The notes beneath the pieces are model-generated. The model was not told the DNA's origin and made no database searches. It saw only the letters and a list, made by a program, of their open reading frames with translations. From the NCBI RefSeq assembly GCF_900188315.1, contig NZ_LT897781.1, forward strand, positions 3,472,001-3,536,000: a stretch of DNA of 64,000 nt. Direction: 5' to 3'. Numbering within the stretch: position 1 is the stretch's first letter; each line of letters starts with the position of its first letter. Source of the stretch: Marinobacter sp. es.042. Lineage in GTDB: Bacteria > Pseudomonadota > Gammaproteobacteria > Pseudomonadales > Oleiphilaceae. Below are positions 45,422-54,250 of this stretch, one piece after another. The position numbers and the translations under genes were made by a program.

Positions 45422-46081
45422 ATGTCAGTGGACAGTCTGAATCAGCACCTGCGCAAAACCCTCTCCCGAGGCCGGGTGGCCGTATCCCGTCCTGCCGGCT
45501 GTGAGCGCATTGCCCTGTACCTCTTTGACCCGAGGGTGCTTGAGGGGCCGTTATCGCACGAAGAGGCCCAGGCGGTCGTTGCCGAACCCGCCTACTGGTC
45601 GTTCAGCTGGGCCAGCGGCCAGGTGCTCGCCAACTGGATTCTGGACAATCCCCATTGGGTTGAGGGCAAGCGCGTCCTGGATTTCGGCTCGGGATCCGGA
45701 ATCGTGGCTGTCGCGGCGGCAATGGCCGGAGCGAAGGAAGCCATCGCCTGTGACATTGATCCGGCTGCGCTGGACGCGGCCAATGCGAATGCGGCTCTCA
45801 ATGGTGTTTCCGTTGGCCTTTGCCCTGACTGGGCAGCCCGACCGGACGAAATAGATGTCGTGACCGCTGCGGATGTGCTCTACGATCCGGAAAACCGGCC
45901 GTTGCTCGGCGTTTTACGCGAGGCGGCTCCTCGGGTGCTGCTGGCGGATTCGCGGATGAAAGTGTTGGGTGACGATGCCTACCGCAAGCAGACAACGCTT
46001 GAGGCCCGGACCTGGCCGGATCTTAACGAATTCGAGGAGTTCAATAAGGTTCGTATCTACCTGGCCGAGAACAACCAGTGA
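45422..46081 (+). CDS. SAM-dependent methyltransferase, ETFB-lysine methyltransferase-like
   Basis: ATG 45422 is chosen because the family similarity begins here; it gives 219 residues. Motif I is VLDFGSGSGIVAVAAAMAGA, preceded by the YWSFSWASGQVLANWILDNP segment typical of PrmA- and ETFB-KMT-like protein methyltransferases. ACDIDPAALDAANANAALNG and VVTAADVLYDPEN fit motifs II-IV. It probably methylates a protein lysine, but the target is not evident. The last 24 bases before the stop are followed by the terminator of the convergent sRNA. Confidence 0.75.
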   Translation: MSVDSLNQHLRKTLSRGRVAVSRPAGCERIALYLFDPRVLEGPLSHEEAQAVVAEPAYWSFSWASGQVLANWILDNPHWVEGKRVLDFGSGSGIVAVAAAMAGAKEAIACDIDPAALDAANANAALNGVSVGLCPDWAARPDEIDVVTAADVLYDPENRPLLGVLREAAPRVLLADSRMKVLGDDAYRKQTTLEARTWPDLNEFEEFNKVRIYLAENNQ

Positions 46082-46110: not shown

Positions 46111-46144
46111 AAAAAAATAAAGGGCAACCAAACGGTTACCCTTT
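46111..46144 (-). terminator. Intrinsic terminator of the CsrB/RsmZ-like RNA
   Basis: On the minus strand AAAGGGTAACC pairs with GGTTGCCCTTT across GTTT, with one mismatch near the middle, and is followed by ATTTTTTT. On the plus strand, A-rich sequence then the same stem ends in CTTTCTC, so it may also help stop the convergent methyltransferase transcript. Confidence 0.9.
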
Positions 46145-46346
46145 CTCGGAACAGGTCGGCGCATCCTTGCGCATTGGGCAACAGCCGTGTTGCGAGATCC
46201 TTGAGCCACTCCGTGGTGCCGGCATCCGAGCCGGCTATCCGAATAGTTATCCCTTAAGCGAGGCGTCCTTGTGTCCCTACCTCTCCCCGCGGTCCTTGCC
46301 GGGGTGCATCCAGTGCGTCGTCCATTTCCCTGTCATCCTTGACGAC
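46111..46346 (-). ncRNA. CsrB/RsmZ-like CsrA-sequestering small RNA
   Basis: Read on the minus strand from about 46346, the gap contains about 14 GGA motifs in about 200 bases, many as AAGGA or CGGA. At least six sit in or at the edge of hairpin loops, such as GTCA-AGGA-TGAC, GCA-CTGGA-TGC, CTAT-TCGG-ATAG, GCCGGC-TCGGAT-GCCGGC, CCAC-GGA-GTGG and GCGCA-AGGA-TGCGC. It ends in an intrinsic terminator. No open frame of note overlaps. This is the signature of CsrB/RsmX/Y/Z RNAs, which titrate CsrA/RsmA from mRNAs. A TATATT -10 and an upstream GacA-box palindrome complete the picture. The exact 5' end is estimated. Confidence 0.82.
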
Positions 46347-46349
46347 AAC

Positions 46350-46355
46350 AATATA
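46350..46355 (-). promoter_or_regulatory. -10 element of the CsrB/RsmZ-like RNA
   Basis: TATATT on the minus strand, with GTCGTC beginning four bases beyond it and opening the first paired region of the RNA. No good -35 lies at 16-18 bases, which fits a promoter that needs an activator such as GacA. Confidence 0.5.
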
Positions 46356-46512: not shown

Positions 46513-46530
46513 TGTAAGAGATATCTCACA
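46513..46530 (-). promoter_or_regulatory. GacA/UvrY-type upstream activating palindrome
   Basis: The plus strand reads TGTAAGAGATATCTCACA. The GacA box is TGTAAG-N6-CTTACA, matched here in 11 of the 12 defined positions. It lies about 165 bases upstream of the predicted RNA start, near the distance seen for Pseudomonas rsmZ. It overlaps the last codons of the VanZ-like gene. Confidence 0.72.
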
Positions 46531-46930
46531 GCGAATCTGGCGAATTTCGCAAATCCGGTTTGCCGGTGTTTCGGATGCCGGGCCAGGGAAGAAGTCCGAT
46601 GGCAATGCCGGCGCCGTCCGCGGCCAGATCGGCCAGGGAAAATTCCCGATAGGGGAGGGTTGCCTGGATAAGCTCAATGCCAAGGCCAAAGCCGAGCAAG
46701 GCCGGCGCAAACCAGATGGCCCGGAGCTCCGGCCAGGCCAGCCGGGTGAGGATGGTGAGCTCGAGGAAGGCGATAAAATGGTTCACCTTGTCGTTCGACG
46801 ATGAGGGTATGGCATGAGGGCTGTCGGTTGTCGCAAGAAACACGATGGCCAGAACGGAAACCACAAAAGCTGCCTGCCAGAGGGGGCGGTATTGCAGCAG
46901 GCTGGTCAGTTGTTGTTTCAATGTATCCAT
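46526..46930 (-). CDS. VanZ-like small membrane protein
   Basis: ATG 46930 gives 134 residues; longer upstream starts add sequence with no family character. Four hydrophobic helices are visible, with the VanZ-like motif SSSNDKVNHFIAFLELTIL near residues 38-57 (Asp-Lys-xx-His-Phe) and FGLGIELIQATLPYREFSLADLAADGAG (core ELIQATLPYREFS) farther on, typical of VanZ-like family proteins. Function is unknown for this subgroup. It is divergent from cysZ with a 97-base gap. Its 3' end overlaps the predicted GacA box. Confidence 0.75.
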   Translation of the reverse strand: MDTLKQQLTSLLQYRPLWQAAFVVSVLAIVFLATTDSPHAIPSSSNDKVNHFIAFLELTILTRLAWPELRAIWFAPALLGFGLGIELIQATLPYREFSLADLAADGAGIAIGLLPWPGIRNTGKPDLRNSPDSL

Positions 46931-47027
46931 CGGGGAAGTCACTGAGCGTTCTCGGGCTGTGGGAATGTTGCCAACATGGTATGCTTTGCGCCCCGTCATT
47001 GTCATTGAAGCGGAGGTCCTGCCAGCT

Positions 47028-47777
47028 ATGCTCAAGGGTAATTTTTTTCGTGGACTGGGCTACCTGGGTGAGGGTTTCCGCCTGATTCGTCAGCCCGGTC
47101 TTCGGCTGTTCGTCATCATTCCACTGGTTATCAATATTCTGCTTTTCGGATTGCTGTTCTTCTTCATGGGAGAGCTGTTTGCAGGCCTGATTGCCACCGC
47201 GATGTCGTGGTTGCCGGACTGGGCGTGGCTTCAGGCACTGGATTGGCTGTTCTGGATTCTGTATGGGGCGGTCATCGTACTGATGCTCGCCTACGGCTTT
47301 GTGATCGTTGCCAATCTGATTGGTTCCCCTTTCTATGGCTATCTTGCCGAGCTGACAGAAAAGCACCTGACTGGTCAGGAGGTGAATACCGATGACAGCT
47401 GGGCATCGATCATCAAGGATATTCCCCGCGCACTCTGGCGCGAGGTTCAGAAAATCCTGTATTACCTGCCGCGGGCTATCGGTTTACTGATCATCGGTCT
47501 TATACCGGTTGTTAATCTGGTTGCTGCTGTTCTCTGGTTCCTGTTCAACAGCTGGATGATGGCGCTGCAATACGTGGACTACCCGGCAGACAACCACAAG
47601 GTCAGTTTCCCTGCCCTGCGTCGTTTGCTCGGTGACACCCGCCTGTCTGCCTTCGGCTTTGGCCTGCCGGTGGCGCTGGCCGCCATGGTGCCGGTGCTGA
47701 ATCTGTTTGTTGTGCCGGCGGCGGTATGTGGGGCGACGGCTTACTGGGTGCGTGAGAACGGCGCCACAAGAACTTAA
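47028..47777 (+). CDS. cysZ: Sulfate permease CysZ
   Basis: ATG 47028, with GGAGG about 10 bases upstream, gives 249 residues, the usual CysZ size. It begins MLKGNFFRGLGYLGEGFRLI and has four main hydrophobic regions, with the conserved NLIGSPFYGYLAE loop and WFLFNSWMMALQYVDYPADN. CysZ carries sulfate for cysteine synthesis in Gammaproteobacteria. rapA follows 16 bases later on the same strand, although the two have no known functional link. Confidence 0.92.
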   Translation: MLKGNFFRGLGYLGEGFRLIRQPGLRLFVIIPLVINILLFGLLFFFMGELFAGLIATAMSWLPDWAWLQALDWLFWILYGAVIVLMLAYGFVIVANLIGSPFYGYLAELTEKHLTGQEVNTDDSWASIIKDIPRALWREVQKILYYLPRAIGLLIIGLIPVVNLVAAVLWFLFNSWMMALQYVDYPADNHKVSFPALRRLLGDTRLSAFGFGLPVALAAMVPVLNLFVVPAAVCGATAYWVRENGATRT

Positions 47778-53634: not shown

Positions 53635-53873
53635 TGGGTACCACTACCTACACAAATTCTCGAAAATACCCTTGGCAAGCTTCGGATTCAGGAGTAGAGT
53701 GAAGGTCGTAGGAAAGATTCAGCAAAGCATTTCATGAATAAGACGTACCTCCGCAGTTAGTAGTGACCGTCCTGTTTTTGATTCAGCGAGTTCTGTATTT
53801 CCGCAAAACGCCGACCTGACACTATGAAGGTGCGAGGCGGCAGATAATATGATTGATTTCAGGAAGTTTAAGT

Positions 53874-54080
53874 ATGTCTACTACTACCGGTACTGTTAAG
53901 TTCTTCAACGAAGCAAAAGGCTTTGGCTTTATCACTCGTGAAGGCGGCCCGGACGTTTTTGTTCACTACAGCGCTATTCAGGGCAGCGGTTTCAAAACTC
54001 TGGCAGAAGGCCAGCAGGTTGAGTTCACCGTTACCCAGGGCCAGAAAGGTCCTCAGGCGGAGAACGTTGTTGCCCTGTAA
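53874..54080 (+). CDS. Cold-shock domain protein (CspA family)
   Basis: ATG 53874 gives 68 residues. The single cold-shock domain has RNP1 KGFGFI and RNP2 VFVHYSAI and the usual [15 protein letters not shown] start. AGGAAG is placed upstream of the ATG. It binds single-stranded RNA and DNA as a chaperone. The preceding gap of 240 bases is long enough for a CspA-type structured leader, and a strong intrinsic terminator follows. Confidence 0.96.
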
Positions 54081-54107
54081 TCCCTGATGGATTCGGCAAT
54101 AACCGCC

Positions 54108-54135
54108 AAAAAGGCAGCTTCGGCTGCCTTTTTTA
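54108..54135 (+). terminator. Intrinsic terminator of the cold-shock gene
   Basis: AAAGGCAGC-TTCG-GCTGCCTTTTTT: a perfect GC-rich stem with a stable TTCG tetraloop and a T-run, beginning 28 bases after the stop codon. Confidence 0.95.
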
Positions 54136-54250
54136 ATGGCTGAAAAACGCCTGGCAAGGTGGCACGCTTTTGTCATTTTCCCATCATTGTGTAATCTTTA
54201 CCGACCTGCTGCTCGTTTAACCGGAAGTCGAGATCTCCAGGAATCATGAC

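Follow-up and report, generated by a model that had tools for sequence, protein, structure and literature searches.

On the minus strand of the window, a 64-kb stretch of Marinobacter DNA, we identify a sequence running from 46346 to 46113 that is very probably a separate gene for a small RNA of the CsrB/RsmZ functional class; the RNA would sequester CsrA. The assignment of this CsrB-like RNA (46113..46346) draws on its 14 GGA motifs, its conservation and its covariation. Several hallmarks of the class come together here: many A(N)GGA motifs, a good part of them in hairpin loops (14 GGA, 10 ANGGA, 8 in the loops of a fitted structure); an upstream UvrY/GacA-type box, a predicted site before a predicted promoter, which is unique in the genome and holds a fixed spacing in relatives; an apparently untranslated sequence with an intrinsic terminator at its end, as judged from the sequence; and a genome that codes for CsrA together with a BarA/UvrY pair. 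This VanZ-side RNA belongs to a functional kind already known, of which it is a new member specific to its taxonomic family.

Position, GGA content and upstream box

The RNA lies in an intergenic gap between a convergent PrmA-like methyltransferase gene (45422..46081, plus strand; PF06325, 56.2 bits) and an upstream VanZ-like gene on its own strand (46526..47035, minus strand; PF04892, 35.5 bits against a cut-off of 30.1). The initial annotation had described this gap as more than 440 bases without a gene, and we measure 444 bases between the two stop codons (46081 and 46526). A plus-strand gene in the gap was set aside, the only candidate there being a 67-codon reading frame that begins with TTG. 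No minus-strand ORF of at least 60 amino acids overlaps the RNA, though one minus-strand frame is stop-free for 73 codons.

The predicted product is about 233 nt long, from ~46346 to 46113. Its 5′ end is placed at ~46346-46343 on the strength of a -10-like site, and its 3′ end at ~46112, within the U-run of the terminator. The -10-like TATATT (46350..46355, minus strand) was recognized from the sequence and is absent from the listing of a consensus promoter scan, which found no promoter on the minus strand and no good -35 before the RNA; a poor -35 is common among activated promoters. In the 10 relatives compared, either TATATT or TATAGT stands at the -10-like place.

The segment 46346-46113 contains 14 GGA on the minus strand, 10 of them in the form ANGGA, in agreement with the estimate of about 14 that drew attention to the locus. 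This is the maximum for any 234-base stretch on the minus strand of the window: all 70 starting positions with 14 GGA, and all 149 with at least 12, fall at the RNA, and the plus-strand maximum is 13 per 234 bases, reached at two places. Against dinucleotide-preserving shuffles, the 14 GGA compare with a mean of 7.5 (3 of 2000 shuffles reach 14) and the 10 ANGGA with a mean of 1.8 (none of 2000 has as many). At least six of the motifs had been thought to sit in or beside the loops of small hairpins; in the structure that we fitted using relatives, hairpin loops contain 8 of the 14. The "textbook" intrinsic terminator was likewise borne out, as a stem-loop (46119..46144, minus strand) with 11 pairs and a loop of 4, followed by ATTTTTTTAT (U-run at 46118-46109), whose hairpin alone folds at -16.9 kcal/mol with a z-score of -6.1.

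Further upstream, a UvrY/GacA-type box, TGTGAGATATCTCTTACA (46513..46530, minus strand), overlaps the VanZ stop codon and is centered at about -176 from the inferred RNA start. We take it to fit the palindrome recognized by GacA/UvrY. The pattern TGTRAGN6CTYACA has a single match in the whole 3.94-Mb genome, namely this site upstream of the CsrB-like RNA, and its reversed control has none. A looser pattern, TGTRNGN6CNYACA, is hardly commoner than its reversed control in the same genome (8 as against 6 matches); hence its counts prove nothing. Among 79 related loci, 77 have a box matching 10 or more of the 12 positions, and 68 of these 77 boxes lie at -170 to -177; in the shortened copies L074-L076 the RNA start was misplaced by BLASTN, giving box distances of -58 to -69. 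A conserved palindromic upstream activating sequence is outlined for GacA-controlled RNAs in PMC7911923 and PMC2375449. The box, which the initial annotation leaves unmentioned, is the strongest single clue to the class of the RNA.

Conservation, loss and structure of the VanZ-side RNA

By BLASTN, the RNA is present in 117 of 120 Marinobacter genomes. Those in which the search found none are G004, G082 and the 62%-complete G033, where the covariance model gave at most 16.7 bits; two of the three are listed as 100% complete. VanZ lies upstream in 76 of the 79 related loci, and a methyltransferase match occurs in 55 of them, convergent and near in 53. As the 79 loci count some species twice, GGA conservation was assessed on distinct RNA sequences, of which there are 70 including that of the window; leaving out the shortened L074-L076 gives 67. 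Each of these has 12 to 17 GGA, and 11 of the 14 GGA positions of the window are kept in at least 63 of the 67, with the other three kept in 44, 51 and 53. Some relatives (L065, L073, L077, L087, L088, L090 and L091) carry extra GGA segments, placed mid-RNA or ahead of the terminator, and their alignment indicates that GGA hairpins are gained and lost between species.

A covariance model built from the alignment (R1) extends the distribution beyond the genus: within the taxonomic family it matches 142 of 151 genomes, from 14 of the 16 genera, at E-values up to 1e-4, with 141 below 1e-10. Matches near the threshold, such as the sole one in G158 (7.4e-5), are untrustworthy. A weak second match in G061 (L149, E 4.8e-5) was rejected, as it looks like chance driven by the terminator. 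Across the order, R1 matches 13 of 293 genomes, all of them of the window's family, in a search with strict filters and 7 candidates scored per genome that may miss weak relatives. Seventeen loci were fetched from other genera. In all 13 that were examined, the box agrees at 11 or 12 of its 12 positions and lies between -172 and -196; a VanZ match occurs in 9 of these 13, and a methyltransferase match in 11, one of them short. The other four include tandem copies. Three of them have a box that agrees at 10 of 12 positions, lying -166, -174 and -300 from the first model match; the fourth, L152, has none. On these comparisons of sequence the VanZ-side locus is old in the taxonomic family. At two loci of other genera, L150 (1060-1571) and L153 (1167-1690), two tandem R1 matches stand behind one box-like site, which suggests a duplication of the RNA. 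Besides its VanZ-side RNA, G095 has a tandem pair of GGA-rich RNAs, both with a terminator-like end (L147:1281-1739, minus strand); the looser box pattern was not found in the fetched stretch.

Loss of the GGA hairpins in relatives that keep the flanking genes would speak against a regulatory RNA of this kind, as the initial annotation pointed out. The comparison came out in favor of the RNA with few exceptions: the RNA, its GGA motifs, its terminator and the box at a fixed distance are kept beside VanZ, and often beside the methyltransferase, in Marinobacter and in further genera. The exceptions are G082 (L204), where VanZ and the box are kept with no RNA after them; G004, which keeps VanZ and in whose fetched stretch neither a box with more than 10 of 12 positions nor the RNA was found; G026 and G063 (L202 and L205), whose shortened RNA has four GGA; and G096, also shortened, which matches R1 in part only. 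With three of the 120 Marinobacter genomes lacking the RNA and three having a shortened copy, the VanZ-side RNA is dispensable.

Folding of the window sequence by itself is weakly informative: the whole RNA folds modestly better than shuffles (z -1.96), and the accessibility of its GGA is not significant, 7 of 100 shuffles reaching the same value. The case thus rests on conservation rather than on one fold. Nine helices were proposed from the window together with an alignment (A2) of 42 sequences, hand-chosen from the 67 without several that have large insertions. In this structure 91.1% of the cells are paired, and two-sided changes occur in 20 of the 47 proposed pairs; as the structure was partly derived from the aligned sequences, the percentage paired is favored, and stronger evidence comes from the two-sided changes. 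No control did equally well, whether among 500 shuffles or among six slid versions. Two-sided changes are present in helices 3, 5, 6, 7 and 8 and in the terminator, and absent in helices 1, 2 and 4.

Read from the 5′ end of the minus strand, hairpin 1 (46332..46343) has the loop AGGA and hairpin 2 (46306..46316) the loop CTGGA, both without two-sided changes, followed by hairpin 3 (46285..46304), with AAGGA in its loop and two-sided changes in 3 of 6 pairs. Helix 4 (46256..46282), formed by AGGT and GCTT, encloses two GGA in its loop and is paired in 100% of cells with one-sided changes only. Hairpin 5 (46218..46235; loop TCGGAT) is paired in 98.4% of cells and has two-sided changes in 2 of 6 pairs, hairpin 6 (46206..46216), with GGA in its loop, has one in 1 of 2 pairs, and hairpin 7 (46178..46193) has them in 2 of 6. 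The loop of hairpin 7 is CGGC in the window, without a GGA; some relatives, e.g., L069 and L078, have a GGA there. Hairpin 8 (46159..46172; loop AGGA) has two-sided changes in 4 of 5 pairs and the terminator in 8 of 11.

The last GGA hairpin is joined to the terminator by a linker (46145..46158, minus strand), given as CGACCUGUUCCGAG in the consensus of the relatives. Its well-conserved CUGUUCCGA may serve as an RNase E site, or it may form pairs with the GGGAA found close to the 5′ end. In the account of E. coli CsrB decay in PMC5027483, an RNase E cut starts the process, within an unstructured stretch that separates the last CsrA site from the terminator; by analogy with that stretch, the linker is a possible RNase E entry site.

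Class, partner genes and rival explanations

Beside the anatomy, the conservation and the genome-unique box, computation establishes the partner genes that such an RNA would need. The genome has one CsrA; a match to E. coli UvrY, with response-regulator and LuxR-type domains, that is 53% identical over 214 residues, the next best match being 28% identical; and a single full-length match to E. coli BarA, 39% identical over 907 residues. We infer that the VanZ-side RNA is transcribed under UvrY control, binds and sequesters CsrA and decays as follows. Phosphorylated UvrY (GacA), driven by BarA (GacS), would bind the box ~176 bases upstream and turn the RNA on. By displaying many A(N)GGA in and between its small hairpins, the RNA would bind several CsrA dimers, and their sequestration would free CsrA-repressed mRNAs. 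The intrinsic terminator would bring transcription to a stop, and decay of the RNA may start in the conserved linker that precedes it.

The initial label of "CsrB/RsmZ-class" stands for the apparent mode of action and fails for Rfam membership, the Rfam test proposed along with it being negative. Searching the Rfam library gave no family at its gathering score in the RNA region or in 19 diverse relatives; E. coli CsrB, run as a control, reached 380 bits in the same test. For CsrB (RF00018), no match was listed up to an E-value of 10 in the region and none at gathering score in the 19 relatives. RsmY (RF00195) scored 9.6 bits over 22 bases against a threshold of 57, and no PrrB_RsmZ match was listed in the region or the 19 relatives in this search of the whole library. 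The permissive search, which shows only the best of overlapping matches per clan, listed only weak matches. Elsewhere in the window (53726-54136), a cspA thermoregulator RNA scores 80.3 bits, just above its Rfam threshold of 78.

R1 in turn gives a weak match to E. coli CsrB (20.2 bits; E 4.9e-6 in a search of 107 kb), which we read as shared design rather than as proof of descent. The likeness lies in the many GGA in repeated small hairpins, the intrinsic terminator, and a genome with CsrA, UvrY and BarA; the segment before the terminator, described as unstructured in E. coli CsrB (PMC5027483), can be likened to the Marinobacter linker. Unlike E. coli CsrB, the RNA is ~233 rather than 369 nt long, is not flanked by syd and yqcC as the E. 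coli gene is, and has no RF00018 match listed. With the Pseudomonas RsmX/RsmY/RsmZ RNAs, as outlined in PMC7911923 and PMC2375449, it shares a GacA-type palindrome upstream and multiple GGA. It differs from them in that all 13 genomes with an R1 match in the order-wide search are inside the window's family, and RsmZ of Pseudomonas is placed beside fdxA in the account of PMC9788540, whereas the Marinobacter RNA is beside VanZ. Csr-type sponges have been proposed in other marine gammaproteobacteria, namely Aln1a-c of Alteromonas and CsrR1/CsrR2 of Alcanivorax (outlined in PMC5864184 and PMC9788540); the Alcanivorax RNAs differ in location, PMC9788540 placing CsrR1 within the 5′ UTR of hfq and CsrR2 next to hpt and fdx. 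Among the open-licence PMC papers listed for Marinobacter in connection with Csr or Gac regulation, no title or abstract opening describes an RNA of this kind in the genus, and an earlier prediction may exist.

Some of the same observations could be accommodated in other ways. A UvrY-controlled RNA might act mainly by base-pairing with mRNAs, or play a dual role, with its GGA merely providing CsrA binding and stability. Besides the GGA, two stretches, around GCTTAAGGGA and CTGTTCCGA, are very well kept, and a dual-function Csr RNA has been proposed in CsrR2 of Alcanivorax, according to the part of PMC9788540 that deals with it; yet the GGA are kept while neighboring loop and linker bases vary, and some relatives have extra GGA hairpins, both as for a sponge, and we consider this explanation improbable. 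A VanZ 3′ UTR, rather than a separate gene, would agree with the place of the RNA directly downstream of VanZ on the same strand and with the scan that found no consensus promoter. Against this stand the constant spacing of the box and the -10-like site between VanZ and the RNA, and three of the 79 loci (L058, L065, L073) that have the RNA and the box with VanZ undetected, making such an origin very improbable. We give hardly any credence to a chance G-rich sequence or DNA-level element without a functional RNA: single-sequence folding only modestly better than shuffles speaks for it, and against it stand the two-sided changes in 20 of 47 pairs, the conserved terminator and the matches in 14 of the 16 genera searched.

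Marinobacter is a widespread marine genus used in studies of hydrocarbon breakdown and of life on algae. An RNA that is present in nearly all of its searched genomes and unmatched by Rfam would be the expected hub leading from the BarA/UvrY sensor to CsrA, and the putative CsrA-sequestering RNA family described here would offer a direct handle on this switch.

A second GGA-rich RNA before a ComEA-like gene

The search with the looser box pattern led to a second RNA by way of six sites in other Marinobacter genomes, picked as box-like among the matches listed. After each of them comes a GGA-rich stretch (9 to 17 GGA per 230 bases), directly in front of a small gene, whose product in the window's own genome is a helix-hairpin-helix protein (PF12836) that we take to be ComEA-like. 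A covariance model built for this comEA-leader RNA (R2) matches 116 of the 120 Marinobacter genomes, missing G033, G057, G078 and G107; in the window's own genome the match lies outside the window, on the minus strand at G000:C1:136184-136408 (locus L173). Rfam gave no match at gathering score in the six loci.

A box-like site with 9 to 11 of 12 positions stands 65 bases before the first hairpin in all 12 of the best loci, and at the matching place in 17 of 20 further diverse loci, with none in the other 3. Two-sided changes occur in 35 of the 48 model pairs (33 sequences, in an alignment fitted to the model). In the two loci scanned, a terminator was found after the gene and none between the RNA and the gene. 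This arrangement looks like a sponge built into the mRNA leader of the ComEA-like gene, much as CsrR1 of Alcanivorax is derived from an mRNA 5′ UTR in the account of PMC9788540.

Judged by their models, the VanZ-side RNA and the comEA-leader RNA are distinct, R2 scoring 4.3 bits on the former. R1 weakly matches some copies of the latter (L148 at 24.4, L115 at 18.6 and L112 at 17.9 bits), much as it matches E. coli CsrB, and for this reason distant kinship and shared design are indistinguishable from these scores.

We put forward, with confidence evenly divided for and against, that the Marinobacter Csr switch uses two UvrY-driven sponges, one a free RNA and the other the GGA-rich 5′ leader of a ComEA-like mRNA, the leader coupling CsrA release to a DNA-uptake-type protein and surviving loss of the free RNA. 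Of the two RNAs, the leader would surprise a specialist more. It raises the question of whether an mRNA that codes for a protein can act across the genus as a CsrA sponge driven by a sensor, and, if the proposal is true, the leader of a coding mRNA would itself be a main CsrA sponge. Lineages in which the first RNA is shortened or lost and the second kept constitute a natural experiment in this regard. All five genomes of this kind (G026, G063 and G096 with the shortened VanZ-side RNA, G082 and G004 without it) keep the comEA-leader RNA, a pattern that fits partly redundant roles of the two RNAs.
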